Origin: Haloglomus litoreum
Lineage (GTDB): Archaea; Halobacteriota; Halobacteria; Halobacteriales; Haloarculaceae
Direction: 5' to 3'
DNA: 64,000 nt
NCBI RefSeq assembly: GCF_029338515.1
Contig: NZ_CP119988.1
Location: 2,232,001-2,296,000 of the forward strand
Below, piece after piece: positions 33,821-59,759 of this stretch. A program made the translations under genes and the position numbers. The notes beneath the pieces are model-generated. The model searched no databases. It was not told the origin of the DNA and saw nothing but the letters and a program-made list of their open reading frames with translations. Every line of letters begins with the position of its first letter. Position 1 is the first letter of the stretch.

Positions 33821-35016
33821 CAGTCATCACCTCCGGCGGCATCGGCGCGCCCGGCCGGTCGTTCCGGCGCGTCGTCCCCACCGGTCGCCCCCGATGGCCG
33901 TCCCTCGTCGGACTGCTCGTCCACGGCCAGTCCGTCAGCGGCCCGCCCGTCCGTCGCCTGTTCCATCCCGGCCGGCGGGGCCGCGCCGCCGACCTCGCAC
34001 AGCGTCGCGACGACGTACGAGGTCACGTCGACGGTGTCGGCCAGCAGTCGCTCGCGCCGCTCGGCCCAGCGCTCGTCGGTGTCGGGGTCGTCGGCCAGGC
34101 GCTCGACCAGCCGGAGCGCGGCCCGCTCGTCGCCCCGCGAGTACAGCAGCCCGTACCGCGTCTCCAGGTTGACGAAGTTCGACATGTCCGTCCCGGCGGC
34201 GAAGGAGTTCGACCGGACCGCCGGCGTCCCGAGGACGGCCGCCTCGGTCGCCATCGTCTGGGAGTCACCGGCGTACAGATCGGCGCCCGCCAGCAGGTCG
34301 TGGACCAGGTCCGCCGGAACCGGGAGCCGGTGGCGCTCGAACCGGTCCGGGAGCGGGCCCTCGGTCGTGATGTACACCTCGCCCCGTTCGTCGAGGCTCT
34401 CGACGAGCGCCGTCGTGCCCTCGCGGGAGAGGCCGGACTCGCCCACGTCGTGGTGGGCGCCCCAGCCGACGAACCGGCAGACGAAGTAGCGCTCGTCCGG
34501 GTCCACGCCGAACGCGCGGAGGCGGTCCGGGTCGGGCTGGAACCGGTCGGGGTGGAGGTAGGCCAGTTCGTGGTAGCCGTCGTAGCGTCGGTGGCCGTCG
34601 CCGTAGTCGTCCCGGATGCCACGCGGCGTACAGACCACGTCGGCGAAGGGTGTCGTCGCGCGCGTGGAGGCGACCCCCTCGTTGTCGATGAAGACGACGC
34701 TCGGCACGTCGAGCAGCCACCCCACGTGCGCGACCGACAGCCCGCCGATGGCGGTCAGCACGTCCGGCCGGAACGAGCGGGCCCGGGCGAGCAGGCGGGC
34801 CTCGTACTGCAGCTGCCCGAGCGCCAGCCCCGGCAGGGTCCGCCCCGCCCGGGCCAGTTCCTCGTGGTCGATCCCGTGGGACGCCAGCAGCTCGGTGGCC
34901 ACGTCCTTCGCGCGCGCGACGACTCGGACGGTGTGGCCCGCGCTCCGCAGCTCGTCGATGGCGTGTCGGTAGAAGTGGACGTGTGCCGGATGCTGCACCG
35001 CGACCATCACCCGCAT
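33820..35016 (-). CDS. DUF354 GT-B-like glycosyltransferase
   Basis: A 398-residue protein starting MRVMVAVQHPAHVHFYRHAI, typical of archaeal DUF354 proteins of the GT-B superfamily. EGPLPDRF and DLYAGDSQTMATEAAVLGTPAVRSNSF lie in the nucleotide-sugar half. The last ~55 residues are an acidic low-complexity tail. It heads the operon with wecB and the deacetylase. ATG 35016 matches the family; an in-frame ATG at 35007 overlaps the TGA of the leader ORF at 35007-35075, so either may be used. Confidence 0.85.
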   Translation of the reverse strand: MRVMVAVQHPAHVHFYRHAIDELRSAGHTVRVVARAKDVATELLASHGIDHEELARAGRTLPGLALGQLQYEARLLARARSFRPDVLTAIGGLSVAHVGWLLDVPSVVFIDNEGVASTRATTPFADVVCTPRGIRDDYGDGHRRYDGYHELAYLHPDRFQPDPDRLRAFGVDPDERYFVCRFVGWGAHHDVGESGLSREGTTALVESLDERGEVYITTEGPLPDRFERHRLPVPADLVHDLLAGADLYAGDSQTMATEAAVLGTPAVRSNSFAAGTDMSNFVNLETRYGLLYSRGDERAALRLVERLADDPDTDERWAERRERLLADTVDVTSYVVATLCEVGGAAPPAGMEQATDGRAADGLAVDEQSDEGRPSGATGGDDAPERPAGRADAAGGDD

Positions 35017-35075
35017 CGTGGTCCCTCCGGCGCCGGCGCCCCTCGTGGTGTCCACCGTGAGCTGAACATGGCCAT
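35007..35075 (-). CDS. leader ORF before the DUF354-wecB operon
   Basis: A 22-codon ORF (MAMFSSRWTPRGA...RCG) with tandem in-frame ATGs at 35075 and 35069, lying 26 and 32 bases after the TATA-like element at 35098-35104. Its TGA overlaps an ATG codon (35007) of the DUF354 gene. Basic composition. Either a translational-coupling leader or chance. Confidence 0.35.
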   Translation of the reverse strand: MAMFSSRWTPRGAPAPEGPRCG

Positions 35076-35344
35076 CGTAGCCGACGGGGGCGGCTTCGTT
35101 ATGCGTCGCCTGTGCTCGACGGAGGGCGGTGCTCCGGCGGTCGGCGTCGCGAGAGGAGTGTCGCGGTGCCGGGCAGCGTACTGCTGACCCGCACCCGGCC
35201 GGCGGCGGTATGGTGGTGGACTGCCGCCGGTCGTGTGCCCGGCACCAGGTCCGACTGCATCCCGGTGGACCCTCGTAATGTGGTCCCTACCCGAGCGGCG
35301 CGCCGTACGTTGGGCTTACCACGGCAGGGCACCGCATGGTCGCC
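35017..35344. other. intergenic region
   Basis: The left part holds the leader ORF and promoter of the DUF354 operon. A second island-like element (CTCGTAATGTGG, about 35274-35285) lies further upstream with no gene at a fitting distance. The right edge is the 3' end of the beta-helix gene. No other gene is supported. Confidence 0.5.
35097..35104 (-). promoter_or_regulatory. GCATAACGAAG promoter element of the DUF354-wecB operon
   Basis: Minus-strand GCATAACGAAG, the island consensus. It is 26-32 bases before the leader ORF but about 85 bases before the DUF354 ATG. Confidence 0.55.
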
Positions 35345-37501
35345 TTACTCGGTGGCCTCGATGGTGGCGAGCGCGCTCCCCTCCAGGTCGAAGCCGAGCA
35401 GGTCCCCGGAGAACCGGTAGGTGTCGGTCCCCGTCTCGACGGTCCCCTCGACGACGGTCCCGGAGATGGTGTCCTCGCTCTCGAGGGAGTCGCCGGTGCC
35501 GGCGGAGACCTCGCCACTCACCTCGAACCGGTAGGTCGCGGGGTCGCCCGACCCCATCCCGTCGAAGCTGATGGTGTTCGGGAGGTCCGGTCCGGCGACC
35601 AGCTCGTCGACGGTCACCTCGGCACCGTCGTAGCGCAGGACGTAGTTCGACGCCTCCGTGCTGGCGGTGAACGCGGTCACCTCGCCGGTGAGGTCGAAGC
35701 TGTCCCCGTAGCCGTTGCCTGTCACACCGGCCACGGTGTACGTGCCGTCGCCGTTGTCGGTGATGGTGTCGTTGCCCTCGGCCTTCAGTCGGGTCCCATC
35801 CGCGGCCTTCGTGGGCTCGCCGTCCGTGGTGAACTCGTAGCTGAACTTCGGGCCGCTCTCGACGGCGACGATCTCCAGCCGGGTGCTGGCGGGCGCAGGG
35901 TCGTCGTCGCCCCCGCCACCGAGCATGTCGGCGGTCACCTCGTCGCCGTCCAGCAGGAGCGTGTAGTTGTCGGCGTCCGTGCTGGCACCGAAGCCGGCGA
36001 ACTCGCCCTCGACCCGGAAGCTGTCGCCGTAGCCGTTGCCGGTCTCGCCCGTCACCGTGAACGTGCCGTCACCGTTGTCGGTGATGGTGTCGTTCCCGTC
36101 GGCCTCCAGCGTGCTCCCGTCCTGGACCTTCGTGACCGGCCCCGTCGCGGTGAACTCGTAGCTGAACTTCGGGCCGCCGTCGACGGCCTCGACGACGAAC
36201 AGGCGGCCGGTCGTGTCGCTCCCGCCTGACGAGCCGCCGTCCGTGGAGCCGCCGTCCGTGGAGCCATCGTCGGTCGGGGTCGCTGTGGCCGTCGGGGTGG
36301 GGGTAGCCGTGGCCGTCGGCGTCGGGGTGGGCGTCGACGTAGCGGTCGGTGTCGACGTGCTGGTGGAGTCGTCCCCGTCCGTCCCGTCCGAGGGGTCCGG
36401 GTCCGCGGTCGGACAGCTGTCCCCGACGCAGACGTCCTCCAGGCTGGAGGGGTAGCTCAGGTCGCCGTCGCCCGTGATGGAGATGCCCTCCGAGGTCCAG
36501 CCGTCGGTGGCGGTGTCGCCGCTGATGGCGGTGGCGCCCGAGTTGTTGTAGACCCGCACGTCCCGGAAGACGCCGCTGGTGCCGTCCGCCTCGGGGTGCA
36601 TCTGGATCGGCGAGGCGGCGCCGTCCCAGGAGTGGTAGATGTCGCAGTCCTCGACGAGCATGTCGTCGCCAGGCTCGCGGATACGCAGGCCACGCTGCGC
36701 GGTCCCATCGTCCCCGATGTCCGTCGACTCGGCGTCGTTGACGATGGTGACGCCGATGGCGTGGCTGTTGTTCGAGCCCAGGCGGACGCCGGCGACGTTG
36801 TTGTTCTTGTAGAGGCCTCCCTCGACGTAGACCGGGCCCTGCTGACCGTCGGAGGGCTTGCCCGGCGCGCTGGCGTAGAGCCCGTTGTTCGAGAAGTCCT
36901 CCAGGTGGACGTTCCGGAGCGTCAGCGTCCCGGCGTGGTCCGGCGGGACGTAGATACCGGTCGCGTCACCGAACTGGCCCTCCATGCCGTCCGGGAGCGC
37001 GACGTTCTCGAGCACGAGGTCGGCGTCACTGGCGGCCTCCAGCCGCCAGCGGCTGTCGTTGCCGTCGCACTCGCCGCGGATGGTGATGTTCCGGAACTCG
37101 ACGGTCCCGCCCGTCGCACGGGTCGTCGGGGCACGGTGCATCCCGTCCGGGTGCCGGAGGACGACCTGGCCGTCGCCGACGAGACCCGCGTCCGCGAAGC
37201 TCCCCCCGATGCCGTCGCCGTTCCACTCGTACTCCCCCGCCGGGATGACGACCTCGTTCCCGTCCTCGAAGAACTCCTCCAGATACGGGTCGATCTCGTC
37301 GCCGGGGGCGAGGCCCTCGTCGCCGAGGTTCACCCTCGTGGCGGCCGACACTGAACCCAGCGCCTGCGAGAGCCCGACACCGACCGCAGCCACGCCGGTC
37401 GCCTTGAGGAGGGACCGACGGCTGAACGAGCCCTTACCGCCTCGCTCCTGCCCGGTAGTTGCGACCTTCTCATCCGTATCGTCTCCCTGGCGTTCTGCCA
37501 T
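35345..37501 (-). CDS. Tat-exported right-handed beta-helix protein with Thr-rich linker and repeated C-terminal domains
   Basis: A 718-residue protein. A twin-arginine signal (FSRRSLLKATGVAAVG) precedes a parallel beta-helix region (about 60-360) containing NNGLYASAPGKP, GPVYVEGGLYKNNNVAGVRLG and RGLRIREPGDDMLVEDCDIY, typical of pectate-lyase-like folds. A Thr/Pro/Asp linker follows, then two ~95-residue repeats that share KFSYEFT, NDTITDNGDGT and GNGYGDSF, and a third diverged copy. Likely a secreted polysaccharide-binding or -cleaving protein. Its helix region is paralogous to that of the gene at 41195-42718. No catalytic residues can be fixed. Confidence 0.85.
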   Translation of the reverse strand: MAERQGDDTDEKVATTGQERGGKGSFSRRSLLKATGVAAVGVGLSQALGSVSAATRVNLGDEGLAPGDEIDPYLEEFFEDGNEVVIPAGEYEWNGDGIGGSFADAGLVGDGQVVLRHPDGMHRAPTTRATGGTVEFRNITIRGECDGNDSRWRLEAASDADLVLENVALPDGMEGQFGDATGIYVPPDHAGTLTLRNVHLEDFSNNGLYASAPGKPSDGQQGPVYVEGGLYKNNNVAGVRLGSNNSHAIGVTIVNDAESTDIGDDGTAQRGLRIREPGDDMLVEDCDIYHSWDGAASPIQMHPEADGTSGVFRDVRVYNNSGATAISGDTATDGWTSEGISITGDGDLSYPSSLEDVCVGDSCPTADPDPSDGTDGDDSTSTSTPTATSTPTPTPTATATPTPTATATPTDDGSTDGGSTDGGSSGGSDTTGRLFVVEAVDGGPKFSYEFTATGPVTKVQDGSTLEADGNDTITDNGDGTFTVTGETGNGYGDSFRVEGEFAGFGASTDADNYTLLLDGDEVTADMLGGGGDDDPAPASTRLEIVAVESGPKFSYEFTTDGEPTKAADGTRLKAEGNDTITDNGDGTYTVAGVTGNGYGDSFDLTGEVTAFTASTEASNYVLRYDGAEVTVDELVAGPDLPNTISFDGMGSGDPATYRFEVSGEVSAGTGDSLESEDTISGTVVEGTVETGTDTYRFSGDLLGFDLEGSALATIEATE

Positions 37502-37524
37502 GGCCGGGTAGGACGGTGTTACTC

Positions 37525-37532
37525 GTATAATT
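37525..37532 (-). promoter_or_regulatory. TATA-like promoter of the beta-helix gene
   Basis: AATTATAC on the minus strand, centred about 28 bases before ATG 37501. Confidence 0.6.
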
Positions 37533-39844: not shown

Positions 39845-41032
39845 CTACCGCCCACGGAGCGCGTCGCTCACGGTCCGGGCGAATGGGCCCGGGTCGTCGA
39901 GTCGGAGGTGGTCGAACCTGGGGTCGGTGAGACAGGTGCCGGCCACCGCCAGCGCCTCGCGCAGCAGCGACGGCCGGGCGACGTGCGGGGAGTCGTCGCG
40001 ACGGATGCTGCGGAGGTAGCCGAGCTCGCCCTTCAGCAGATGGCTGGCCGACCCCACCTCGTACGAGGGGTCGATGGCCTCCGGCCGCCCCGAGGCGAGG
40101 AGCCAGTAGTCGTGGGGGAAGTCGGCGCCCGCACGGACCGTCGCCGGGAGCGACTGCCACATCCGGGGGTTGATCTCCGTGAGGACGAACTCGCCCGTCT
40201 CGGCGTCACGCATGTACTCGATGCAGGCCAGCCCGTGCCAGTCGAGGTGGTTCAGGAGCTTCCGTGCGACCGTCTCCAGCCGCGGGATGTAGACCGAGCG
40301 GCGGAACACGCCGCCACCGCCGACGTAGGAGTTGCCGCGGATCTGTCGGTGCTGGAAGGTCACCAGCGGCTCGCCCTGGTCGTACAGCGCCGCGACCATG
40401 TACTCGTCCTCGCTCCGGATGTACTCCTGCGTGATCGGGACGTGACCCATCGACTCGCGGAACGCCTCGACGTCCGGTGCCTCGTTCGGCGTCAGGTGGG
40501 GGACCTCCTTCACCGTCGCCGTCTCGCCCGGGGCGAGGTCGTCGACGTAGGTGTCGACCAGGAGGTTGTACCGCGACTTGACGATCCGCTCACCGCTCCA
40601 GTCGGTCACGTCGGTCAGTTCGGCCGTGTCGGGGACGGGGACGCCGGCGGCCTCGGCGGCGGCCGCCAGCTCCAGCCGGTCGTGGACGGTCCTGAGCTGG
40701 GCCGGTGTCGGGACCGGCACGTCGACGTGCTCCGCGAAGGCCTCGTGGAACCTCGAGAGGACGTACACGTCCTCCTCCCGCATCGGGACGACCGTCCGGA
40801 CCGCGGGACGCTCGGCCAGTTCGAGGAGCGCATCGCGGTACGCGAGCAGGTCCTCGTCCGGCGGCGGCACGTGGGCGGCCTCGGCACAGAAGCGCGACCG
40901 GAACTCGGGCGCCCGCCGGTCGTCGGACGCGACGATGGTGTGGAGCCCCCGGCGTCCGAGCGACCGGACGGTCGGATAACAGCCCACGTGGCCGGTCGGT
41001 ATCACCACGGCGTCGCGCTCGGCCGCACTCAT
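39845..41032 (-). CDS. ATP-grasp carboxylate-amine ligase-like protein
   Basis: A 395-residue protein. The N-domain has VVIPTGHVGCYPTVRSLGRRG; the ATP-grasp part has RIVKSRYN, ITQEYIRSEDEYMVAALYD, FQHRQIRGNSYVGGGGVFRR and FVLTEINPRMWQSLPATV, where the last supplies metal-binding Glu and Asn. Such ligases couple an acid to an amine using ATP. In glycan islands they may add amino acids to uronic acids; that is inference. Its ATG at 41032 overlaps the TGA of the 41-codon leader ORF. Confidence 0.88.
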   Translation of the reverse strand: MSAAERDAVVIPTGHVGCYPTVRSLGRRGLHTIVASDDRRAPEFRSRFCAEAAHVPPPDEDLLAYRDALLELAERPAVRTVVPMREEDVYVLSRFHEAFAEHVDVPVPTPAQLRTVHDRLELAAAAEAAGVPVPDTAELTDVTDWSGERIVKSRYNLLVDTYVDDLAPGETATVKEVPHLTPNEAPDVEAFRESMGHVPITQEYIRSEDEYMVAALYDQGEPLVTFQHRQIRGNSYVGGGGVFRRSVYIPRLETVARKLLNHLDWHGLACIEYMRDAETGEFVLTEINPRMWQSLPATVRAGADFPHDYWLLASGRPEAIDPSYEVGSASHLLKGELGYLRSIRRDDSPHVARPSLLREALAVAGTCLTDPRFDHLRLDDPGPFARTVSDALRGR

Positions 41033-41154: not shown

Positions 41155-41180
41155 GGCCGAGAGGACCCCGCTGGAGGGCT

Positions 41181-41188
41181 TCGTTACC
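41181..41188 (-). promoter_or_regulatory. GGTAACGA promoter element of the ATP-grasp unit
   Basis: Minus-strand GGGTAACGAAG, 31 bases before the leader-ORF ATG and about 153 before the main ATG. Confidence 0.5.
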
Positions 41189-41194: not shown

Positions 41195-42718
41195 CTACCG
41201 GAACGTCCCGTGCCGACTGGTCGCCGGGCCGTTCCGGACCGCTCCCGTACCGGCCCGGGGGTCGGTGAGGCGTCCTCGGCGGGCCAGGCGACTGGCGGTC
41301 CCCGTGGTGGTCGTGGCCTCGCAGGTGTCCTCGACATCCCGGGTCTCGGCGGTGGACTCCTCCAGCACGATGGCCTCGCCCGTCACGTCGATACCGGCGT
41401 CGCTGATGCGGTTGTCGTTCGAGCGGAGGAGCCGGATCCCGTCGCGCGAGTCCCCGGTCTGCTGGATGCAGAGGTTCTCAAACCGGGAGTCGTTCCGGTC
41501 CACGACGTTGACCGCCGCGACGCCGGCGGCGGCGCCGGTGATCTCGACGTTGCGGAGCGTGACCGCCGTCGAGATGTCGTCGTCGTCCTCGTACTCGTCG
41601 ATGGGGCTCTTCGCCAGTACCGCGGCCACCCCGTCGGCGTCGATACGGATGGTCGTGTCGCGGATCTCGGCCTCGCGCATGTGGGTCGAGACCGTGATCG
41701 CCCCGTCGCTGGCGGCGACCTCCAGCATCTCCACGGTACAGCCCTCCACCAGCGCCTCCGTCCCCTCCCGGAGCCGGATGCCCCGCGTGTTCTCCACCTT
41801 CTCCGAGAGCCCGTCGGCGCGCACGTGCACGTCCCGGACGACGGCCCCGTCGCCGACCCGGACGTTCGCGATGGCGTTGTTGGCGTAGTAGCCCCCCTCG
41901 ACGGTGACCGGCCCCGTCGCGGCCGAGGCGTACAGGCCGTTGTCGGGGAAGCCGACGATCCGGCAGTCGCGGAAGGTCAGCGACCCCTCGCTGTCACCGG
42001 TCACCAGACAGCCCGTGATGGGGAGGTCTCGCCTCGCGCCGTCCGGGAGGTGCATGCGCTCGACCAGCCCGGAGCCGTCGGGGTCCATCACGTCGAACCG
42101 CATCATGTCCTGGTCGACGTCCTGCTCGCCCCGGACGGTCACGTCGCGGACGACCATCCCGTCGGCGATGCGGATGTTGAGTGGGCGTGCGCCGGTGGAC
42201 TCGGCGCGGAAATCGAACGTCAGCCCCTCGATGCGGAGGTCCCGGCCGTCGTTGAACAGGAACATCGTCCGTCGGTAGCCGTCCGGCGGCCGGACCGTCG
42301 CTTCCGGCCCGACGATGGCCAACCGCTCGAAGTCGTCGAACAACCAGTCGTCCGCCATCAGGTAGGTCCCCTCGGCGAGATACAGCAGGGTGTCGTCGGC
42401 CGCGTGCTCCTCGAACAGCGGGATGATATCCTCCTTGCCGGTGGGGTCCGCGCCGGCACGCTCGAGGTCCACCACCGTCCCGTACTCGTCGACGTACGGG
42501 ATGTCCTCCCGGCGCGTCGGCGTCGGCTCGGCGTCCGTTCCCGTGGGTGTCCCCCGACCGGTCGGGGTCTCGGTCGGGGTCTCGGTCGGGGTCTCGGTCG
42601 GCGGCTCCTCGTTCGATTCCACGAGTGAACAGCCCGCCAGACCAGCTGTCGCCCCCGCAGCGCCGAGCCCACGGAGCAGGGTCCGGCGGTCGATAGGGTC
42701 CTCGGTACGGTCGCTCAC
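41195..42718 (-). CDS. Tat-exported lipoprotein with right-handed beta-helix
   Basis: A 507-residue protein. The signal IDRRTLLRGLGAAGATAGLAGC ends in a lipobox Cys, followed by a TETPTETPTETPTG spacer and a parallel beta-helix (about 90-450) with PDNGLYASAATGPVTVEGGYYANN and RGIRLREGTEALVEGC, clearly similar to the protein at 35345-37501. The spacer suggests a surface-anchored enzyme or binder acting on a glycan. No ATG is near; the GTG at 42718 is used because a CATAACAA element lies 30 bases upstream. Confidence 0.85.
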   Translation of the reverse strand: MSDRTEDPIDRRTLLRGLGAAGATAGLAGCSLVESNEEPPTETPTETPTETPTGRGTPTGTDAEPTPTRREDIPYVDEYGTVVDLERAGADPTGKEDIIPLFEEHAADDTLLYLAEGTYLMADDWLFDDFERLAIVGPEATVRPPDGYRRTMFLFNDGRDLRIEGLTFDFRAESTGARPLNIRIADGMVVRDVTVRGEQDVDQDMMRFDVMDPDGSGLVERMHLPDGARRDLPITGCLVTGDSEGSLTFRDCRIVGFPDNGLYASAATGPVTVEGGYYANNAIANVRVGDGAVVRDVHVRADGLSEKVENTRGIRLREGTEALVEGCTVEMLEVAASDGAITVSTHMREAEIRDTTIRIDADGVAAVLAKSPIDEYEDDDDISTAVTLRNVEITGAAAGVAAVNVVDRNDSRFENLCIQQTGDSRDGIRLLRSNDNRISDAGIDVTGEAIVLEESTAETRDVEDTCEATTTTGTASRLARRGRLTDPRAGTGAVRNGPATSRHGTFR

Positions 42719-42742
42719 GTGCGGAGACGGCGGCCACGGGGC

Positions 42743-42751
42743 ATTGTTATG
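42743..42751 (-). promoter_or_regulatory. GCATAACAA promoter element of the beta-helix lipoprotein
   Basis: Minus-strand GCATAACAAT centred about 30 bases before the GTG at 42718. Confidence 0.6.
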
Positions 42752-42893: not shown

Positions 42894-43658
42894 CTAGTCA
42901 ACGTCGAGTGGCTTCCCGGAAGTGGTCCGCCGTGGCGGGGTGTAGCAGTACTCGTCGACGTTGTACTTCTTCTCGACGAACTGATCGAGCATGAACTGGC
43001 GGATTCGCCCGAGTTCGCGGTCGATCTCCGAGCGGAGCCTGTCCTCGAAGGACGCGTCCCGCTCGCCCCACAGCCCCGGATGCGTGAGCACCTGCAGCGC
43101 ATCGGGCGTCCCGCCCTGTGCCAGCGGCGGCTCGTCGCGCCACCGCATGTTCGAGTCACTCAGGTAACACACCTCCGAGAAGAACCGGGGCTCGTAGGTG
43201 CTGACGAAGCCGTCGTAGCTCCGGCCGAACACCCACTCCGGCGGACGGTGGAAGGAGAGGACGCGCGACGGCCGCTCGACCACCCCCGAGAGGATGTCGA
43301 ACTCGGCCGCCGCCCGCTCGCGGAGCTCGCGTCGGCCGGGGTCGGCATCCCAGTACTGGTGCGTGCTGAAGTGGAGCCCCACGTCGTGACCCATCGCCTG
43401 GATCTCGGCGACGATCTCCCGGGTCGGCTTGAAGCCGAGGTTGTAGGCGGGAGACGTGACCAGGAACAGGTACGTCGACTGCAGCCCAGCCTCGCTCTCG
43501 ATGGATGCGATCCGGAGTGCCTTCCGGGGGGAGAAATCCACGTCGTGACGGAGGTACAGGTCGCCGCTACTCGGGGGCTCGGTGTACCGGCGCGACCGGT
43601 ACCCCCGGTCCTGGAGCGTCCGGAGGAACCCCCGGTACCAGTCGTAGGTGAACGTCAC
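42894..43658 (-). CDS. polysaccharide deacetylase-like protein, short form
   Basis: A 254-residue protein of the NodB-like fold: LYLRHDVDFSPRKAL carries the HDVD metal motif, VGLHFSTHQYWD the second His site, and LTHPGLWGE a late His. These enzymes act on amino-sugar glycans, although the second-shell residues differ from classical deacetylases. Start: a GTG at 43658 overlaps the TGA of the upstream 55-codon ORF as GTGA and is preferred; a GTG at 43667 is the alternative. Confidence 0.8.
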   Translation of the reverse strand: MTFTYDWYRGFLRTLQDRGYRSRRYTEPPSSGDLYLRHDVDFSPRKALRIASIESEAGLQSTYLFLVTSPAYNLGFKPTREIVAEIQAMGHDVGLHFSTHQYWDADPGRRELRERAAAEFDILSGVVERPSRVLSFHRPPEWVFGRSYDGFVSTYEPRFFSEVCYLSDSNMRWRDEPPLAQGGTPDALQVLTHPGLWGERDASFEDRLRSEIDRELGRIRQFMLDQFVEKKYNVDEYCYTPPRRTTSGKPLDVD

Positions 43659-43822
43659 GTCGCCCACGACGGTCCACCTCCGAGCGACCGGGGAGTCGGA
43701 CAGCAGCGGTCGGTACGCGGGACCGGGAGGCTACCGGCTGGTACACCACGCCTGCAGCCGTGCGGGACGGGGTGGTTCGACGCCGGGCGCCCCGACCGCG
43801 GCCGGCGTGGTTCGTCTATCAT
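43655..43822 (-). CDS. leader ORF before the short deacetylase gene
   Basis: A 55-codon ORF (MIDEPRRPRSGRPAS...GPSWAT). ATG 43822 is 26 and 32 bases after the two copies of the element at 43845-43857, and its TGA overlaps the GTG of the deacetylase gene. Arg/Pro-rich; no motif apart from a CC pair. Confidence 0.4.
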   Translation of the reverse strand: MIDEPRRPRSGRPASNHPVPHGCRRGVPAGSLPVPRTDRCCPTPRSLGGGPSWAT

Positions 43823-44489: not shown

Positions 44490-44567
44490 TCAGCGGTCCC
44501 CTCCGAGCGAGAGCTGCCTGAGCGAGACGACACGGGACGACAGGGACACGCAGTGTGGGAGCGACAT
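44490..44567 (-). CDS. leader ORF before the YdjM-like gene
   Basis: A 25-codon ORF, MSLPHCVSLSSRV...LGGDR. ATG 44567 lies 27 bases after the CCATTAT element (44591-44597). Its TGA ends at 44490, immediately before the main ATG at 44489 and in the same frame. The geometry matches the other leader ORFs of this island. Confidence 0.4.
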   Translation of the reverse strand: MSLPHCVSLSSRVVSLRQLSLGGDR

Positions 44568-44734: not shown

Positions 44735-46549
44735 CTACCGTGACTGTGCGCGAGTCGTCCCGGTGGGACCGTCACCGTCGGCCCCGGGTCCGGTCGGTTC
44801 GTCCTGGTGCTCCGGCAGGAACTCCGCTCCCACCATGAGGTCTCCCGCAGCCGCGTCGCCGACGGAGACGTTGTAGCGCCCCGGGCTGTCGAGGAAGACG
44901 GTGAACGTGACGGTCCGGGTTTCGCCGGCCCCGATGGGGACGAGCCTGACTCCAGCGAGGTCACCGTCGAGCCGGAGTGGGACTGCCGAGAGGGTGCCCC
45001 CGGAGCCATCGTTCCGGACGGTCGCGGTTACGGTCGTTACCTCCCCGGTCCGGATGTAGTCGCGGCTCAGCGCCGCCCGCTCGACCGACACCGCGGGCGT
45101 CCCAGTCGCGACCGTGTAGACCGCCGGGAACTCGTCGGCGGTCTCGAAGCGGTAGACGTACCGGGTGGCAGTGGTGTTCACACGCTCCGCTTCGATCCGC
45201 GCCGGCCCATCGGAGCCACCCGGGCGGGCGACGAACACCGACGACCCACGGAGGTCCGGATACATCGTCCGGTTGATACTGAACTGGACGCTCAGGTTCC
45301 CGGTAGCCGCCGATGGGTCGCTATCGACGATCACGGTCGAGAGCGACCTGACGCCATCGGAGGCGGCCAGTTCGTCCGGGCGTGCGGACTGGCTCAGTCG
45401 CAGCGAGAGGTCCCCGTACTCCGCGGCCCGGATGCCGAGCTGCTCGAACGCGACGCCGGTGGTGTCGGCGACGCTGTCGGACGGCAGGTCGACCGTCACC
45501 GGGTGGGCGACGGAGGCGTTCCTCACGTGCGCGCTGATGCCCAGTTCCGTCCGGGTCACCGCTGTCGTGACGGGGCCGGGATCCGCCACCCGCACCTGAC
45601 CGACGTAGTCGTGGTCGAGGCTCAGCACGTACGAGCCGCGCTCGTCGAACGTGTGGGTGAACCGGTAGGTACGTGACTCCCCGGCCGGGATGGACCGGCG
45701 GTCGGCGTTCCCCCCGACCATCCGTCCGTCGCTCCGCAACTGCGGCCGGAAGGTCCCGTCGCCGTCCCCCTCGTTCGTCACCGTCACCGCGATCTCGACG
45801 GGCGAGCCCACCACCGTCTTCTCCGGGGTGATGGTGGCGTCGGTGATCTCGATGTCGGGACTCGGTGCCTGTACCCGCTGGACACGGCGCTCGGCCGTCG
45901 TCTCGGCGGTGTCCACCAGCTGGTCCATCGCTCCCGCGACGTCCGCGCTCCCCGACTGGAAGGCCGCGGGGACACCGTACCAGGTCCCACCCACCGCGTC
46001 GGCACGGCGCTCCCAGGGGCGAGGCCCAGCAGCGAACAGTGTCGCGTAGCGGCCCGAGAGCGCCTCGTCGGCCGTGGCCCGGTCAGCGGTCGAGCTGGAG
46101 TCGTCCTCGTTGGTGAGGACGACGTAGAACCGCTCGGCACCACTCCGGTACGACAGTCCGGAGGCGGCCATCACGCCCTCGGAGGCGTTCTCGAAGCTCC
46201 CGCTGTACTCGACGCCCGCGAGCCCGCTCTCGACGGCCCCCACGTCGTCGGAGAGCCCGGTCACGACTGTCGCGTCGGACTCGTAGGTCACGAGCCCGAA
46301 CCGTGGGTCGAGGCCCCGTTCCTCCATCGCGGTGGCGACCCCGGGCAGCTCCTCCTCGAGCGCCTCCCCGAGCGGTTCGGCGTTGGCGGAGCTGTCGACC
46401 ACGAACACCACGTCGACGCTGCCGTGGGCGGGGGCGCCTGTCCGGCTCGCTGGCGCGTCCGTCGTCGACGCGACCGCCGCACCCATCGCGGTGACCACGA
46501 GGAGCGCCAGCGCGACCGCCCCGGCCCGACTCCACCAGGTCCCCGTCAT
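44735..46549 (-). CDS. exported VWA-domain protein with CARDB-like repeats
   Basis: A 604-residue protein. A Sec-type signal peptide (AGAVALALLVVTAMGAAVAS) precedes a von Willebrand A domain starting VDVVFVVDSSANAEPL and then RFGLVTYESDATVVTGL. The MIDAS would be D-S-S-A-N, where the usual fifth Ser is Asn. Two CARDB-like beta-sandwich domains follow (ITPEKTVVGSPVEIAVTVTNEG; LSRDYIRTGEVTTVTATVRNDG). There is no C-terminal anchor; the tail is acidic. It is probably cell-surface and adhesive. ATG 46549 overlaps the TGA of the upstream 63-codon ORF. Confidence 0.83.
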   Translation of the reverse strand: MTGTWWSRAGAVALALLVVTAMGAAVASTTDAPASRTGAPAHGSVDVVFVVDSSANAEPLGEALEEELPGVATAMEERGLDPRFGLVTYESDATVVTGLSDDVGAVESGLAGVEYSGSFENASEGVMAASGLSYRSGAERFYVVLTNEDDSSSTADRATADEALSGRYATLFAAGPRPWERRADAVGGTWYGVPAAFQSGSADVAGAMDQLVDTAETTAERRVQRVQAPSPDIEITDATITPEKTVVGSPVEIAVTVTNEGDGDGTFRPQLRSDGRMVGGNADRRSIPAGESRTYRFTHTFDERGSYVLSLDHDYVGQVRVADPGPVTTAVTRTELGISAHVRNASVAHPVTVDLPSDSVADTTGVAFEQLGIRAAEYGDLSLRLSQSARPDELAASDGVRSLSTVIVDSDPSAATGNLSVQFSINRTMYPDLRGSSVFVARPGGSDGPARIEAERVNTTATRYVYRFETADEFPAVYTVATGTPAVSVERAALSRDYIRTGEVTTVTATVRNDGSGGTLSAVPLRLDGDLAGVRLVPIGAGETRTVTFTVFLDSPGRYNVSVGDAAAGDLMVGAEFLPEHQDEPTGPGADGDGPTGTTRAQSR

Positions 46550-46737: not shown

Positions 46738-46763
46738 AATTCGGTCTTACCCCATATCGGGCT

Positions 46764-46772
46764 TTGTTATGG
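46764..46772 (-). promoter_or_regulatory. CCATAACAA promoter element of the VWA unit
   Basis: Minus-strand CCATAACAAAG, 31 bases before the leader ORF ATG at 46737. Confidence 0.55.
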
Positions 46773-47753: not shown

Positions 47754-47969
47754 ATGACGGCCGCGCTACGGACACTCTGGGAGGAGCAGCCGACCAACCC
47801 CGACCTGGAGGCGGACCTGGGCTACCAGCTCGACCCGCTCATGATCATCGACGGCCCCGACCACGGTGGCCAGGTCATCCTCCTTCCCGCGGAAGAGGAA
47901 CAGCTCCACGACGACGAGTTCATCGTCGCGGACGCGGAGACGCTCGTCTCGCTGGCGGACTGGAACTGA
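47754..47969 (+). CDS. small acidic conserved haloarchaeal protein
   Basis: A 71-residue protein, MTAALRTLWEEQPTNPDLEADLGYQLDP at the start and ADAETLVSLADWN at the end. The strongly acidic composition and the regular pattern match small haloarchaeal proteins of unknown function. A GGAGGG lies about 10 bases before the ATG, and a CGTATAGG about 44 bases upstream may be the promoter. It is convergent with glmS. Confidence 0.75.
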   Translation: MTAALRTLWEEQPTNPDLEADLGYQLDPLMIIDGPDHGGQVILLPAEEEQLHDDEFIVADAETLVSLADWN

Positions 47970-48020: not shown

Positions 48021-49826
48021 TCACTCGACGGTGACGCTCTTCGCGAGGTGGCGTGGCTTGTCGATGGCGCGGTCGAGCAGGTCCGAGACGTGGTAGGCGA
48101 GCAGCTGGAGCTGGACGTTCGCCAGCAACCCCTGGAGGTCCGGATGCGTCTCCGGGACCGAGAGGATCTCGTCGGCCTCGGCACCGACGCTCGTCCGCTC
48201 GCTGGCGACGGCGATAACGGGGGCCCCGCGGGCGCGGACCTCACGGACGTTCCCGAGCGTCTTCTCGTCGTCGCGCCCGGTGAAGATGGCGACCACCGGC
48301 GTCTCCTCGGTGACCAGCGCCAGTGGACCGTGCTTCAGCTCGCCGGCCGGGAACCCCTCGGCGTGCTCGTAGGAGATCTCCTTGAACTTGAGTGCGCCCT
48401 CGAGTGCGACCGGGTGCGCCGTCCCGCGCCCGATGAAGAAGTGGGCCCGCTGGTCGTGGTACCGGCGCGCGATTCCCTCGGCCGGGGTCCCGGCCAGCAC
48501 CGTCTCGACCTGCCCGGGGAGCGCGGGCAGCGCGGTCAGCAGCTCCGCCAGTTCGGGCCCGATACCGCCGGTGCGGGCCGCGAAGTGGCCCGCCAGGAGC
48601 GTCAGCGTGACGACCTGTGAGGAGAAGGTCTTGCTGGCGGCGACGCCGATCTCCGGCCCGGCGCGGATGAACAGCGCCTCGTCGCACTCGCGGGCCGCGG
48701 TCGAACCCAGCACGTTCGTCACCGCCATCGTCCGGGCGCCACTGTCGGCGGCGTGCCGGAGTGCGCTCAGGGTGTCCGCCGTCTCGCCGCTCTGGGTCAC
48801 GCCGACGACGAGCGTCCCCTCCTCGATGGTCGGCATCCGGCCGGGGTACTCGCTGGCGAGCCACGCCCCCGCATCGGTCCCGTACCGCGAGAGGAGGTGG
48901 GCACCGTAGAGCGAGGCGTGATAGGAGGTACCACAGGCGACCAGGTGGACCCGCTCGACCCCGTCGAGGCGGTCGTCGAGATCCAGGTCCACCTCGACGG
49001 GGTCGGTCGACAGCCGCCCGTGGAGCGTCCGCCGGATCGCGTCGGGTTGCTCGTTGATCTCCTTCAGCATATAGTGGTCGTACCCCTCCTTGCGAGCGTC
49101 CTCGGGGGCCCAGTCGACGGTCCGGACGGGTCGGTCGGCCGGCTCGCCGTCGGCCGTGGCGATGCGATAGCCGCCCGCGGAGATCTCCGCCACGTCGCCG
49201 TCCTCGAGGTAGATGACGCGGTCCGTGTGCTCCAGGAACGCCGGCACGTCGCTGGCGACGAACGACCGACCGTCCCCCAGCCCGATGACGAGTGGCGACC
49301 CCTGGCGAGCGACGTGGATGCTGGACCCGTCCGCGACCACCATCGCGATGGCGTAACTGCCCTCCAGTTCCGCCAGGGTCCGCCGGAACGCCGCGCCGAC
49401 GTCGCCCGTCTCCTCCAGGTGCTCCTCGACGAGGTGGGGGATGACCTCGGTGTCGGTATCGCTGTCGAACTCGTGGCCCCGGGTCTCGAGGCCCCTCCGG
49501 AGCTCGGCGTGGTTCTCGACGATGCCGTTGTGGACCACCGCGATCTTCCCGGTGCAGTCCGTGTGCGGGTGGGCGTTGGCGTCGGTCGGGGCGCCGTGTG
49601 TGCTCCAGCGCGTGTGGCCGATGCAGAGTTCGCCCTCCGGGAGCGCGTCGGTCAGGTCGGCAGCGAGATCGGAGATCTCGCCGGCACGCTTCGCGACCTC
49701 CAGCCCGTGGCCGTTCCGCATCGCGACGCCGGCGGAGTCGTAGCCCCGGTACTCCAGGTTCCCGAGTCCGTCGAGGACGGCCGGCACGGCGTCGTCGTGT
49801 CCGACGAGCCCGATGATGCCACACAT
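48021..49826 (-). CDS. glmS: glutamine--fructose-6-phosphate aminotransferase (isomerising)
   Basis: A 601-residue two-domain enzyme. MCGIIGLVG places the catalytic Cys at residue 2 of the glutaminase domain; THGAPTDANAHPH, VVHNGIVENH and SDTDTEVIPHLVEE are its other motifs. Two SIS sugar-isomerase domains follow (CGTSYHASL, TQSGETADTLSALR, GPEIGVAASKTF, EGALKFKEISYEHAEGFPAGELKHGP). It makes glucosamine-6-phosphate, the source of the UDP-GlcNAc used by WecB and the N-acyltransferase in this window. The start ATG overlaps the TGA of an upstream ORF. Confidence 0.96.
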   Translation of the reverse strand: MCGIIGLVGHDDAVPAVLDGLGNLEYRGYDSAGVAMRNGHGLEVAKRAGEISDLAADLTDALPEGELCIGHTRWSTHGAPTDANAHPHTDCTGKIAVVHNGIVENHAELRRGLETRGHEFDSDTDTEVIPHLVEEHLEETGDVGAAFRRTLAELEGSYAIAMVVADGSSIHVARQGSPLVIGLGDGRSFVASDVPAFLEHTDRVIYLEDGDVAEISAGGYRIATADGEPADRPVRTVDWAPEDARKEGYDHYMLKEINEQPDAIRRTLHGRLSTDPVEVDLDLDDRLDGVERVHLVACGTSYHASLYGAHLLSRYGTDAGAWLASEYPGRMPTIEEGTLVVGVTQSGETADTLSALRHAADSGARTMAVTNVLGSTAARECDEALFIRAGPEIGVAASKTFSSQVVTLTLLAGHFAARTGGIGPELAELLTALPALPGQVETVLAGTPAEGIARRYHDQRAHFFIGRGTAHPVALEGALKFKEISYEHAEGFPAGELKHGPLALVTEETPVVAIFTGRDDEKTLGNVREVRARGAPVIAVASERTSVGAEADEILSVPETHPDLQGLLANVQLQLLAYHVSDLLDRAIDKPRHLAKSVTVE

Positions 49827-49984
49827 CAGGTCTCACCCCCGCCGGACCGGGTCCGTTCGTCCGGCCCCGTGCCGGGTCGCCATCGCGACGTGGGGGGCCG
49901 GACGGGCCGCGGTGGTCTGGGTGCCGCGTACGCACGCGTCGGTACCGCATCGAGCATCGTGACCGTGATCGTTGCTGGTCTCAT
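49826..49984 (-). CDS. possible leader ORF before glmS
   Basis: A 52-codon ORF (MRPATITVTMLDAVPTRAYAA...) whose TGA overlaps the glmS ATG as ATGA. Its ATG is about 80 bases, not 30, after the GCATAACGAAG element at 50061-50070, so the fit is weaker. Another frame (GTG 50024) also stops just 6 bases before glmS, which shows that such ends can arise by chance here. Confidence 0.25.
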   Translation of the reverse strand: MRPATITVTMLDAVPTRAYAAPRPPRPVRPPTSRWRPGTGPDERTRSGGGET

Positions 49985-50229
49985 GGAAGTGGTGTCGGAA
50001 CGCCCACCCGAGGTGACCGCGCACCGACGGATGGATACCAACCCATACCGTGGCGTGGCCTTCGTTATGCTCAGGTTGCTACCGGATAACCACCACCTGA
50101 TTCTCCCGCTGGTGTATCGGACGGGGGCCGGCCGCGTCAGGATGCTCGAGAGGCCGGGCCAAGAGGCTCGCAACCTTCCTCTCCCGAGTCCGCCACCGCA
50201 TCCGCCGCCGAGGGTCGCCGCTCCCGAGC
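49827..50229. other. intergenic region upstream of glmS
   Basis: About 400 bases with a GCATAACGAAG island promoter element (50061-50070, minus orientation) roughly 240 bases before glmS, and overlapping open frames. If the element is the glmS promoter, the transcript has a 5' leader of about 210 bases, unusually long for a haloarchaeon. No further gene is supported. Confidence 0.5.
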
Positions 50230-55084: not shown

Positions 55085-55213
55085 ATGGTCGAATTAGGAA
55101 GCGCCTACTCCTCCTTTCAATCCGATATGGCGGGGATAACCAAAACAAACCGCACCATATCTCCGCTACCTGCCCGTCTCGCACACCGACAGTCGGCGGG
55201 GCGGGAGGGCTGA
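55085..55213 (+). CDS. leader ORF before the GT2 gene
   Basis: A 42-codon ORF (MVELGSAYSSFQSDMAGITKTNR...) starting 30 bases after a TATA-like element; its TGA (55211-55213) ends 3 bases before the GT2 ATG at 55216. It is the plus-strand example of the leader-ORF arrangement, and its first half looks more protein-like than the others. Confidence 0.4.
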   Translation: MVELGSAYSSFQSDMAGITKTNRTISPLPARLAHRQSAGREG

Positions 55214-55215
55214 CC

Positions 55216-56313: not shown

Positions 56314-56554
56314 GCGACACCGACACTACCGGATGGGGCGGTCGCGAGCCCGATGTCGGGGGAAGCAGCTCGCGGTAGTCGGAGATGGGATCGGCCGCGA
56401 GCGGTAGTCCGACAACGCCGGGACGGATGGCCGGTCCTACAGTTTCCCGCTGGTCCCCGTTCCAGGCCCAGAACCCGGTAACGCGGAGGTATCGCGACCC
56501 GGGGGAGATACCACCTCTATAACAATGCCGTCCGGGTGTCCAGTCCGGAACGCG

Positions 56555-56800
56555 ATGGCACGAATGCACGTAACCGACGACGATGAGGGCAAGAGCGTAG
56601 TCGACTCCAGCGGGAAGAAGATCGGGATGGTCACCGAGGTCAGGGAGGGCACCGCGTACGTTGACGCTGACCCGGGGATCACCGACACCATCCGATCGAA
56701 GCTCGGCTGGGGCGACGCCGACAAGGACGACTACGCCCTGCAGAAGAGCCGTATCGACACGATTACGGACGACGAGATCCGCCTCAAGAAGAACCTGTAG
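56555..56800 (+). CDS. PRC-barrel domain protein
   Basis: An 81-residue protein: GKSVVDSSGKKIGMVTEVREGTAYVDADPG is a PRC-barrel start, then KLGWGDADKDDYALQKSRIDTITDDEIRL. Haloarchaea carry many small PRC-barrel proteins linked to RNA processing or envelope roles. ATG 56555 lies 35 bases after CTATAACAA; the ATG at 56525 lies within that element's reach and is rejected. Confidence 0.85.
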   Translation: MARMHVTDDDEGKSVVDSSGKKIGMVTEVREGTAYVDADPGITDTIRSKLGWGDADKDDYALQKSRIDTITDDEIRLKKNL

Positions 56801-57217
56801 CTCGCGGTCCCGCGTCCCTGTTCACTGCCGATTCTTTTTCTGCTCGCAGCCGCACTCCGGGAGCACTGCCTGTCGGATTCACGCGCCCACGACCAGGTGA
56901 TGACATCCGGCGCTGTCGTGCGGCCAGGCGACGACAACGGGCGCTGTCGTGCGGCCAGGCGACGACGTTCGGTGTTCCAGACCAGCGGACGGAGCCGTGA
57001 GCTTCTGCAGCGGCCGCTCTCCAGCAGGCGCGATGTGCGAGCGCCGGAGTGGGTCCGGCGAGTCGGGCAGTGTTCCGACGCCCGGGCAGGACGCGGAATC
57101 CGGTAGCGACAGCTCGACCGGACGTTGCGGACGCACCGGTCGGTAGGGCTTTGTATAGAGAACCGCTACCGGAGGTAGTTCTTCGCTTCGCGGTCGAAGC
57201 GGGCGGACACCCGGGCA
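56801..57217. other. intergenic region with a tandem repeat
   Basis: About 420 bases between the PRC-barrel and TraB-like genes. It holds the 26-base direct repeat (56910-56966) and, at 57150-57160, a TATA-like TTTGTATAGAG that is about 63 bases before the TraB-like ATG. Several short basic open frames have no support. Confidence 0.5.
56910..56966. repeat. two direct copies of a 26-base unit
   Basis: GCGCTGTCGTGCGGCCAGGC plus GACGAC occurs at 56910-56935 and again at 56941-56966, separated by AACGG. Two copies with a 31-base period are too few and too close for CRISPR. It is probably a local duplication or a paired binding site. Confidence 0.7.
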
Positions 57218-58057
57218 ATGACCGAGCACGACCAGACGGACGAGCATGGAGGAACTGACGCGATTGCAAACGTGGAGAGCGGCCACCCACAGGACCACGC
57301 ACCGTGCGATGGTCGGCCACTCGATGATCCGCGGCTCGACGACCCACGACTCGACGATAGCTATCTCCGAGTCGTGCCTGGAACCGAGACGGGCGGGACC
57401 GTGGTCCTGGTCGGCGTCACACACGACCACCCGGCGAGCCGAGAGCGGGCGCGGCGAGTGGTCGAAGGGGTCACACCGGCAGTCGTGGCCCTGGAGCTGT
57501 CCCCGCTCGTGATACCACTCTATCGACAGTACGCGGGGTCGGGCGACGGACGCACGGCCAGCGAGTACGACGGCGGCGAGATGGCCGCGGCGCTGGCAGC
57601 CAGTGGCGACGGACGGGTCGTGGGGATCGACGCCCCCAACTGGGCGTACGCGCGGCGGCTCGTCGAGGCGCTTCGCTCACGGGAGACGGATCGCGAGGCG
57701 GCCGTCTCCGCCATCCGGGACACCATCTCCGTCTCCAGACACGCCGTCGCCTGTGCCGTCGGCGCGGCGATCCGCACGGTGACACCCTGGTCCCCCACCG
57801 TCGAGACGCCGGCCTCCCACGACAGTTCCACTGCCGACCCGCCCGCGGCGCAGGCCGCCCACGAGGCCCGACAGCTCTCTCGGAGCCGGGCACTGCTGGG
57901 CGCACTCGAGCCGCCGCCGGGGCAGGAACTCGTCGACGAGCTCCGCGAGGCGAGTATGTCGTCGCGGATCGACGCCCTGCGGACCGAGGGGGCCGTCGTC
58001 GCCGTGGTCGGCCACGCCCACCTCGAACCCATCTACGAGCGACTGGCTGCCGAGTGA
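57218..58057 (+). CDS. TraB/PrgY-domain protein
   Basis: A 279-residue protein. TVVLVGVTHDHPASRERARRVVEGVTPAVVALEL matches the TraB start (GxxHxS...ExxxI...P..V.vEL), GGEMAAALAASGDGRVVGIDAPNW its middle, and VVGHAHLEPIYERL its end. An acidic, repeated N-terminus (DDPRLDDPRLDD) precedes it. TraB proteins are putative metalloproteases or regulators near membranes; no span is seen here. The transcript probably has a leader of about 35 bases. Confidence 0.82.
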   Translation: MTEHDQTDEHGGTDAIANVESGHPQDHAPCDGRPLDDPRLDDPRLDDSYLRVVPGTETGGTVVLVGVTHDHPASRERARRVVEGVTPAVVALELSPLVIPLYRQYAGSGDGRTASEYDGGEMAAALAASGDGRVVGIDAPNWAYARRLVEALRSRETDREAAVSAIRDTISVSRHAVACAVGAAIRTVTPWSPTVETPASHDSSTADPPAAQAAHEARQLSRSRALLGALEPPPGQELVDELREASMSSRIDALRTEGAVVAVVGHAHLEPIYERLAAE

Positions 58058-58180
58058 GACGACGGACTGCCGAGCGACCATCCTGATGCCGGTGGGGCCA
58101 GGGCGCTCCCGAACTGGCTTCCCGAGACAGTGGTGACAAACCACCACTCCGCTGGACTAATTCCGCATATTACCGGTCAG

Positions 58181-58219
58181 ATTGGAATATATCTCACAGA
58201 GTTGAGTTACAACTCCAAT
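58181..58219. terminator. nested inverted repeat between convergent genes
   Basis: Outer arms ATTGGA (58181-58186) and TCCAAT (58214-58219) enclose inner arms AGTTG (58200-58204) and CAACT (58210-58214). It lies in an AT-rich stretch of about 100 bases (58140-58245) between the TraB-like gene and the flippase gene. A bidirectional terminator or a short structured RNA is possible. Confidence 0.4.
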
Positions 58220-58246
58220 ATACTTCCAGTCAGGTTAGAACACGAC

Positions 58247-59722
58247 TCAGGACAGCAACGAGACCACGCGCCGCGGGGCGAGCAGCCCGGTCAGGACCGA
58301 CAGGAGCGCCCACGCCGCGCCGCCGGCGGCGACGACCGCCAGCAGCGTGGCGATGCCGGTGACGTACGGCAACAGCACTAGGACCAGCACCGCCATGCCG
58401 CCGGTCACGACGAGGATGGTGCCGGTGTCGGTCGCCAGCCGCGCCAGCGACGGCGACAGCTCGGCCCGGATGACGTAGACGTTCGCCCCGGTGTAGACGC
58501 TGTAGGTGAGGACCGTCGCGATGGCCGCCCCCACGACGCCCACGAGGGGCAGCAACAGCACGTTCAGGCCGGCGTTGGCGACGGCCATCGACCCCTGCGC
58601 GACGGCCCGCTCGCGCGCGCGGCCGAGGTAGTCGAGGCCGTCGTTGGTGACCTTGTTGACCGCGTTGACGACGACGAAGCCGCCGAACACCTGGAGGACG
58701 GGCACGGCGCCGAGGTAGTCGGTCCCGAAGACGTGCCGGACCAGCGGCTCGGCGACCAGCACCAGGCCGGCGGCCGCGGGGAGGTAGAGCAGCAGGACAC
58801 CACGGAGCGACTCCTCGTAGAGGCGGGCGGCCCGCTCGACGTTGCCGGCGGCGGCCTGCTCCCCGAGCGCGGGCGAGACGGTGAACCCGAACGCCGAGAC
58901 CGGGACCGCGGCGAACTCGGCCACCTGCTTCGCGACCGTGTAGTAGCCGACCGCGACCGGCGAGAGGATGACGCCGACGAGGATGGTGTCGACCCGCTTG
59001 TCGAGGACGTTGGCCGCGCGCGTGGCGGTCAGGGGCGCGCTGTACTCGACGAGGCGGCGGAGGAGCCCCTCGGACGGCGCCTCCGGCCCGTCGGCGGGGT
59101 GGTAGAACCGCGTCACGAGGACGTACCCCCCGACGAGCATCGCGGCGGCGAACCCGACGACGTAGCCCAGCATGGCCCCGAGCGCTCCCCAGCCCAGCAG
59201 CACCAGGCCGAGGACCGCCACGAGCCGACCCAGGTTGGAGACGATGGAGACGACCGCACTCCAGGTGACGCGGTTGAACCCCTGGAAGACGACGTTGCAG
59301 TAGCTGTACCCCGAGCGGGCGACCACGTAGCCCCCACCGGCCACCAGTAGCGGCGTCAACGAGGGCTCGCCCAGGAGCCGCGCCAGCGGCCCGCTGACCC
59401 CGGCCAGGACGAGCCCCACGCTGCAGCTCAGCGCAATCAGGAGGGCCGCCGACCGGACGAGCAGGTGCGGGATCTGCCCGGGCGCCGTCTCGCCGTACTC
59501 GGTGACGTAGCGTGCGGTCGACTTCGGCAGCCCGAGCGTCCCGAGGAAGCCGACCACGCCGACGACGGAGAGGGCGAGGAACAGCAGGCCGTACCGCTCC
59601 GGCTCCAGCAGGTACCGCGTCAGGACAACGACGAGCGCAGCGTTGGCGAGCGAGCGGACGACGGCCGAGAGCAGCGAGGCCCGCAGCCCGGTGGCCAGTC
59701 GGTCCCGCAGGTCCGTCGCCAT
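58247..59722 (-). CDS. polysaccharide/oligosaccharide flippase (Wzx/AglR-like, MATE-superfamily fold)
   Basis: A 491-residue membrane protein with about 14 hydrophobic spans. The N-terminus (SLLSAVVRSLANAALVVVLTRYLLEPERYGLLFLALSV) and LDKRVDTILVGVILSPVAVGYYTVAKQVAEFAAVP are typical of PST-type flippases that move lipid-linked glycans outward. Start at ATG 59722; a GTG at 59737 is in frame. An 11-codon ORF ends just before the ATG. It is the glycan exporter for the second part of the island. Confidence 0.9.
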   Translation of the reverse strand: MATDLRDRLATGLRASLLSAVVRSLANAALVVVLTRYLLEPERYGLLFLALSVVGVVGFLGTLGLPKSTARYVTEYGETAPGQIPHLLVRSAALLIALSCSVGLVLAGVSGPLARLLGEPSLTPLLVAGGGYVVARSGYSYCNVVFQGFNRVTWSAVVSIVSNLGRLVAVLGLVLLGWGALGAMLGYVVGFAAAMLVGGYVLVTRFYHPADGPEAPSEGLLRRLVEYSAPLTATRAANVLDKRVDTILVGVILSPVAVGYYTVAKQVAEFAAVPVSAFGFTVSPALGEQAAAGNVERAARLYEESLRGVLLLYLPAAAGLVLVAEPLVRHVFGTDYLGAVPVLQVFGGFVVVNAVNKVTNDGLDYLGRARERAVAQGSMAVANAGLNVLLLPLVGVVGAAIATVLTYSVYTGANVYVIRAELSPSLARLATDTGTILVVTGGMAVLVLVLLPYVTGIATLLAVVAAGGAAWALLSVLTGLLAPRRVVSLLS

Positions 59723-59723
59723 C

Positions 59724-59759
59724 TCAGTCGCCCCCACACACGGCCCCTCGGCGTGTCAT
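59724..59759 (-). CDS. 11-codon leader ORF before the flippase gene
   Basis: MTRRGAVCGGD, starting 38 bases after the GCATAACGAAG element at 59793-59800. Its TGA (59726-59724) is one base from the flippase ATG at 59722. Same geometry as the other leader ORFs, at the smallest size. Confidence 0.35.
   Translation of the reverse strand: MTRRGAVCGGD

Follow-up and report, generated by a model that had tools for sequence, protein, structure and literature searches.

In Haloferax volcanii, nine overlapping gene pairs are strictly coupled, and in haloarchaea the Shine-Dalgarno sequence is reported to be widely used for reinitiation at overlapping pairs, not for de novo initiation (Huber et al. 2019, PMC6728339). 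How haloarchaeal messages with a 5' leader are translated without de novo use of the Shine-Dalgarno sequence has yet to be settled (see the discussion in PMC7531240). The passage of Babski et al. (2016, PMC4983044) on upstream open reading frames (uORFs) describes one of 15 amino acids in the long 5' untranslated region (5'-UTR) of the H. volcanii flippase gene agl15. In mycobacteria, leaderless short open reading frames (ORFs) have been proposed to be mere deliverers of ribosomes (Shell et al. 2015, as cited in a passage of the review PMC12548453). Here we analyze short ORFs that end on the start codons of surface-glycan genes in a 64-kb stretch (GC content about 70-71%; hereafter the window) of the 4.70-Mb single-contig genome of Haloglomus litoreum (NZ_CP119988.1, positions 2,232,001 to 2,296,000). 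From their sequence features, we propose that these are probably ribosome-delivery leader ORFs, which would act by termination-reinitiation.

The surface-glycan genes of the region encode a UDP-GlcNAc 2-epimerase, DUF354, GNAT, GlmS, GT2 and flippase proteins, and outside the window the same region carries hexapeptide transferase, DegT, GFO/IDH, UDP-sugar dehydrogenase and DUF1616 genes. The closest relatives of the glmS in the window are haloarchaeal. All eight short ORFs claimed in an earlier sequence-only reading of this DNA were found at the coordinates given there; only the GT2 leader is on the plus strand, and the other seven are on the minus strand (Table 1). That reading took geometry to be the only trait shared by the units, which proved too narrow. 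The promoter elements of the DUF354, ATP-grasp, VWA and flippase units, together with one upstream of glmS, are a single motif, (C/G)RTAACRAAGSC. The core RTAACRAAGSC has six exact copies genome-wide, five of them within the glycan island (genome positions 2,267,092-2,305,277), and the reversed control pattern has none in the whole 4.70-Mb genome. The elements of the deacetylase, YdjM and GT2 units contain no copy of the shared motif.

The motif is present in most of the relatives examined, often clustered, and is more frequent than its reversed control. At 219 of the 258 motif sites read, a gene start lies within 450 nucleotides (nt). Counted from the first base of the motif, these distances peak sharply at 30-39 nt, which places the motif where leaderless genes have their core promoter. 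Among the 74 non-redundant proteins encoded downstream, 14 match hexapeptide transferases, 12 type I phosphodiesterases, seven GFO/IDH oxidoreductases, four GT2 and four glutamine-amidotransferase (GlmS-type) families, and others match further glycosyltransferases, DUF1616 and flippases. This pattern of glycan families was not seen in a random set of 74 genes. As judged from its distribution, RTAACRAAGSC looks like the element of a regulon of surface-glycan genes that haloarchaeal families have in common; a special TFB/TBP or an activator may read it. A literature search with the motif letters returned no relevant paper, and no described haloarchaeal glycan promoter motif was found, in the part of the literature covered. 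The CsmR motif, TATCA(N4)TGATA, differs from RTAACRAAGSC.

Ten motif promoters were examined in this genome, and in all ten a start codon lies 22-48 nt downstream. Five of them start the gene itself: GNAT, beta-helix and CoA-transferase, at the distances given in Table 1, a hexapeptide GTG at 36 nt and DUF1616 at 48 nt. The other five (DUF354, ATP-grasp, VWA, flippase and, by a relay, glmS) open a leader whose stop falls on the gene start. At the eight motif sites of the island, four contacts and one relay were observed, against 0.6 expected. The CoA-transferase, beta-helix and hexapeptide genes were ruled out as 5'-UTR cases, being direct starts from the motif; therefore, all true 5'-UTR cases in the island fit the leader arrangement. 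The sequence-only reading had further suggested that surface-glycan expression depends on leader translation. This may hold where a leader is present, but it does not hold generally: half of the motif promoters examined drive their gene directly, as predicted leaderless transcripts, and therefore not all glycan genes need a leader.

If the DUF354 protein starts with MRVMV, which is the start kept by orthologues, the TGA of its leader lies within the gene and ends at a depth of 10 nt; otherwise, a TGATG is formed with the second ATG. No Pfam family was assigned to the deacetylase-like main ORF in the Pfam comparison.

Separately, the GTG starts of the beta-helix lipoprotein (42718) and of the hexapeptide gene (position 73241 in window numbering, in locus L005) are probable, and both lie upstream of the starts given by the coding score. 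The CoA-transferase family III gene (61980-63263) appears to use the motif as a leaderless promoter, an arrangement that recurs in another family of the order (L201).

Table 1. Leader ORFs, main genes, promoter motifs and Shine-Dalgarno-like sequences, in window numbering
Feature	Positions	Strand	Remarks
DUF354 leader ORF, 22 codons	35007..35075	-	ends within first codons of DUF354
Shine-Dalgarno-like GGAGGG ahead of DUF354 start	35023..35028	-	
DUF354 / glycosyltransferase-like main ORF	33820..35016	-	PF04007
Motif CATAACGAAGCC, DUF354 unit	35092..35103	-	
ATP-grasp leader ORF, 41 codons	41029..41154	-	ATGA overlap with ATP-grasp start
ATP-grasp-like main ORF	39845..41032	-	weak Pfam match
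Motif GGTAACGAAGCC, ATP-grasp unit	41177..41188	-	
VWA leader ORF, 63 codons	46546..46737	-	ATGA overlap with VWA/CARDB gene
VWA/CARDB protein main ORF	44735..46549	-	
Motif CATAACAAAGCC, VWA unit	46760..46771	-	
First glmS relay leader ORF, 21 codons	49981..50046	-	TGA forms ATGA with start of second leader
Second glmS relay leader ORF, 52 codons	49826..49984	-	TGATG overlap with glmS
Shine-Dalgarno-like GGGGGTGAG ahead of glmS	49832..49840	-	
glmS	48021..49826	-	start fixed by MCGI N-terminus
Motif CATAACGAAGGC, glmS unit	50058..50069	-	
Flippase leader ORF, 11 codons	59724..59759	-	stop 1 nt upstream of flippase start
Polysaccharide flippase main ORF	58247..59722	-	PF01943
Motif CATAACGAAGGT, flippase unit	59789..59800	-	
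Deacetylase leader ORF, 55 codons, without shared motif	43655..43822	-	GTGA overlap if second GTG is the start
YdjM-like leader ORF, 25 codons, without shared motif	44490..44567	-	stop adjoins start; GGAGGGG precedes start
GT2 leader ORF, 42 codons, without shared motif	55085..55213	+	stop 2 nt upstream of start; GGGAGGG precedes start
Motif variant, direct drive of GNAT gene	31676..31687	-	ATG 38 nt downstream at 31648
Motif variant, direct drive of beta-helix lipoprotein gene	42740..42751	-	GTG 32 nt downstream at 42718
Motif variant, direct drive of CoA-transferase gene	63286..63297	-	ATG 33 nt downstream at 63263

The same geometry was found in other haloarchaeal genera. Motif sites in relatives were collected by the motif, not by the presence of a leader, and were made non-redundant by shared 12-mers; this yielded 94 sites with 49-260 nt between motif and gene. 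Expected numbers were obtained from dinucleotide shuffles in which the motif and the gene start were kept fixed. At 25 of the 94 sites, an ATG located 22-45 nt after the motif opens an ORF that ends on the start of the gene, against 2.9 expected. ATGs at a distance of 11-21 nt, where transcription would not yet have begun, give no contact leader (1.15 expected). The stops are exact overlaps in 24 of the 25 leaders (19 ATGA/GTGA, 5 TGATG). When relays are included, the ORF opened by the first ATG gets to the main start at 39 of the 94 sites (9.4 expected), and at only 2 sites does it run out of frame into the gene (12.7 expected). Leaders with other start codons were also considered: GTG gave a weak excess (9 against 4.4 expected), and TTG, CTG and ACG gave no clear signal at the motif sites.

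The specificity of the arrangement was examined with genes outside the motif set. Generic genes anchored on a canonical TATA element gave 6 contacts in 45 (1.2 expected), yet these genes lay in the same glycan loci, and for this reason 40 random 20-kb chromosomal blocks were chosen as the control. A contact ORF precedes 29 of 91 motif 5'-UTR genes (7.5 expected) and 23 of 274 random chromosomal genes (16.5 expected; Fisher p = 3e-7). The predicted leader device is therefore concentrated at glycan promoters and rarer outside them, and it is not exclusive to glycan genes. Leaderless genes are the majority in haloarchaea (PMC6728339 quotes 72% for H. volcanii), so the modest general excess at random genes is compatible with a wider use of leaders. 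In this window, two small genes outside the motif set, at 47754-47969 (+) and 19792-20052 (-), have leader ORFs of 28 and 48 codons, with a TATA-like sequence upstream and a strong Shine-Dalgarno sequence at the main start.

GlmS must begin with MCG, and its cysteine becomes the N-terminal nucleophile, so glmS can serve as a control with a certain start. The sequence-only reading had treated this gene as a misfit that fits only at the stop. This is not the case, since the motif lies further upstream and is followed by a two-ORF relay onto glmS (Table 1). The same strict count gave another two relays in relatives, against 0.17 expected. We sorted the upstream partners of glmS in 50 haloarchaeal genomes into long genes and short leaders by the length of the open frame. 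A TGATG/TAATG overlap joins glmS to a long upstream gene in 19 of the 50 and to a short leader ORF in 14 (about 1 expected). The remaining 17 mostly have a stop codon 1-2 nt ahead of the start, behind a GGAGG-like motif. As judged from these arrangements, the leader at glmS is a stand-in for the upstream cistron. Across the haloarchaeal glmS loci (L312-L377), a stop codon and a GGAGG motif, belonging to either a long upstream gene or a short leader, stand directly upstream almost always, and few of the 50 lack one.

The nature of the leader peptides and of the leader RNA bears on two other explanations. The leaders could be attenuator or sensor peptides of the trp/erm type, gating the glycan genes by ribosome stalling or alternative RNA folding. 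Their 5' position in a co-regulated group of genes is in line with this, and the glmS relay would be an elaborate leader of that kind. However, no conserved peptide or regulatory codons were found among the leaders compared, and their lengths range from 6 to 64 codons. The folding of the 5' regions is not unusual: their mean z is +0.27, with none below -2, and 5'-UTRs that lack a leader have a mean of -0.18. An Rfam scan of the 64-kb window gave no match. An attenuator function is thus distinctly unlikely.

Alternatively, the leaders might encode functional small proteins and only incidentally stand at the head of operons. Small-protein genes are numerous in H. volcanii, and some lie in long 5'-UTRs and have low isoelectric points, according to the passage in PMC4983044. 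The leaders studied here are instead Arg-rich and basic, the latter as the sequence-only reading had observed for most of them, with a net acidity of -0.09 against +0.07 for the main proteins, and they do not differ from alternative frames. Their codon-position GC is nearly flat, and the composition is not coding-like. In homologous leaders, the differences are about equal at the three codon positions, with no third-position excess, and insertions and deletions are of 3 or 6 nt. Neither purifying selection on the peptide nor the acidic composition of haloarchaeal proteins was found in the leaders, which makes a small-protein role very improbable. The leaders do differ in length and sequence, as had been noted earlier, and there is no peptide conservation among homologues. 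The best explanation appears to be that selection keeps the open frame, the stop/start contact and the Shine-Dalgarno sequence, the peptide being dispensable.

The Shine-Dalgarno sequence is concentrated at the leaders. It is present at 79% of leader-coupled starts, compared with 38% in shuffles, with a mean pairing energy of -9.9 kcal/mol. It is found at 32% of leaderless motif genes, 32% of 5'-UTR genes without an upstream ATG and 16% of random genes without a leader. A strong Shine-Dalgarno sequence lies within the upstream ORF at 72% of leader-coupled starts, compared with 26% of other starts. Ribosomes could, in principle, initiate directly at these internal sites, the leaders being a by-product of selection against out-of-frame upstream AUGs. 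Such AUGs running into genes are indeed depleted at random genes too (6.8 against 16.3 expected). If AUGs were being avoided, ATGs should be lost, yet near the predicted 5' end of the transcript they exceed expectation (53, with 20.9 expected), and H. volcanii does not use the Shine-Dalgarno sequence in de novo initiation (PMC6728339). We therefore consider internal initiation scarcely plausible. Least credible of all is that the leaders are chance open frames beside real promoters: long frames come easily in DNA of 71% GC, and shuffling leaves a contact ORF at some 6-8% of genes of any kind, but the 25 contacts against 2.9 expected at motif sites are specific for position and overlap, they are associated with the Shine-Dalgarno sequence, and at glmS, with its fixed start, 14 of 50 loci have a leader where about 1 is expected.

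We propose that the ribosome-delivery leaders would work as follows. With RTAACRAAGSC at the core-promoter position, transcription would begin about 33-35 nt downstream. When the gene's own start lies at that position, a leaderless message would be translated. When it is another 50-250 nt downstream, a short ORF would open at the first AUG close to the 5' end, and ribosomes would load on this ORF in a leaderless or near-leaderless manner. After translating it, they would terminate at the ATGA/TGATG overlap, beside the Shine-Dalgarno sequence inside the leader, and reinitiate on the main gene, at glmS through the relay of two leaders. We infer the transcript 5' ends, the translation of the leaders, reinitiation and the dependence of glycan expression on it from this arrangement. 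By analogy with the published work on other gene pairs of H. volcanii (PMC6728339), expression may depend on translation of the leader. The suggestion that leaderless initiation on the short ORF is followed by termination-reinitiation thus gains support from the promoter-anchored geometry, its replication across genera and the overlaps, from the concentration of the Shine-Dalgarno sequence at leaders, from the frame being kept while the peptide drifts, and from the replacement of the upstream cistron at glmS.

Several observations weigh against this proposal. The main gene starts, except that of glmS, were assigned by coding score. For the deacetylase, YdjM and GT2 leaders, the support consists of geometry and the Shine-Dalgarno sequence, and the individual evidence is weaker. 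About half of the motif sites with a 5'-UTR have no contact leader. In the best DUF354 orthologue (61% identity), a GTG follows the motif at 33 nt and there is no leader, so that no single leader appears to be required; many other DUF354 orthologues lie directly behind an upstream gene. Leader ATGs are mostly located 25-43 nt after the motif, and leaderless genes start at 32-41 nt, but 14 of 39 leaders begin at 59-110 nt; therefore, a short 5'-UTR, rather than a strictly leaderless start, must be allowed.

A second class of sites was observed at hexapeptide transferase loci (L157, L212, L215, L228), where the first ATG lies about 59-65 nt after the motif and the intervening sequence is similar, as if a further core element lay between motif and ATG; these leaders still end on the gene start. 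The glycan island also encodes a TrmB-like regulator, at 26277-27074, and a protein with DUF7344, at L005:3328-3990.

Beyond this locus, haloarchaea may, more tentatively, use disposable 5'-end leader ORFs, relays included, as a general route for leadered messages without de novo Shine-Dalgarno initiation, with the device concentrated, and maybe regulated, in a surface-glycan regulon whose promoter element is shared across families of the order. For a considerable part of the 5'-leadered haloarchaeal messages, the leader ORF as a supplier of ribosomes would be a specific answer that can be tested, and RTAACRAAGSC offers a sequence handle on the regulon. Since the feature is conserved across genera as geometry only, while the peptide drifts, it is missed by ordinary gene annotation.

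The leaders most closely resemble the overlapping pairs of H. volcanii (PMC6728339), which share the ATGA/TGATG overlaps, the Shine-Dalgarno sequence inside the upstream ORF and the haloarchaeal host, and where de novo initiation at the downstream gene is likewise not expected. There, however, the upstream partner is an annotated gene, whereas here it is a short unconserved ORF at the predicted transcript 5' end, behind a shared glycan promoter and sometimes in a relay. The H. volcanii uORFs, as presented in the passage in PMC4983044, are also short ORFs, located ahead of the main gene and downstream of a mapped transcription start, and include that of the glycan flippase agl15. They encode 15-31 amino acids with a low isoelectric point, whereas the leaders here span 6-64 codons, are basic and have a conserved geometry; the passage does not describe stop/start overlap, a Shine-Dalgarno link or conservation. 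The mycobacterial short ORFs differ in being bacterial, and the passage in PMC12548453 describes neither a comparable cross-genus geometry nor a promoter motif. The bacterial trp and erm attenuators similarly have a short ORF ahead of the operon genes, within the 5' leader, but the leaders here lack the conserved peptide, regulatory codons and attenuator-like folding. What is new relative to these systems is that the setting is archaeal, that a promoter motif and relays are involved, and that comparison between genera shows a geometry that is kept while the peptide drifts.

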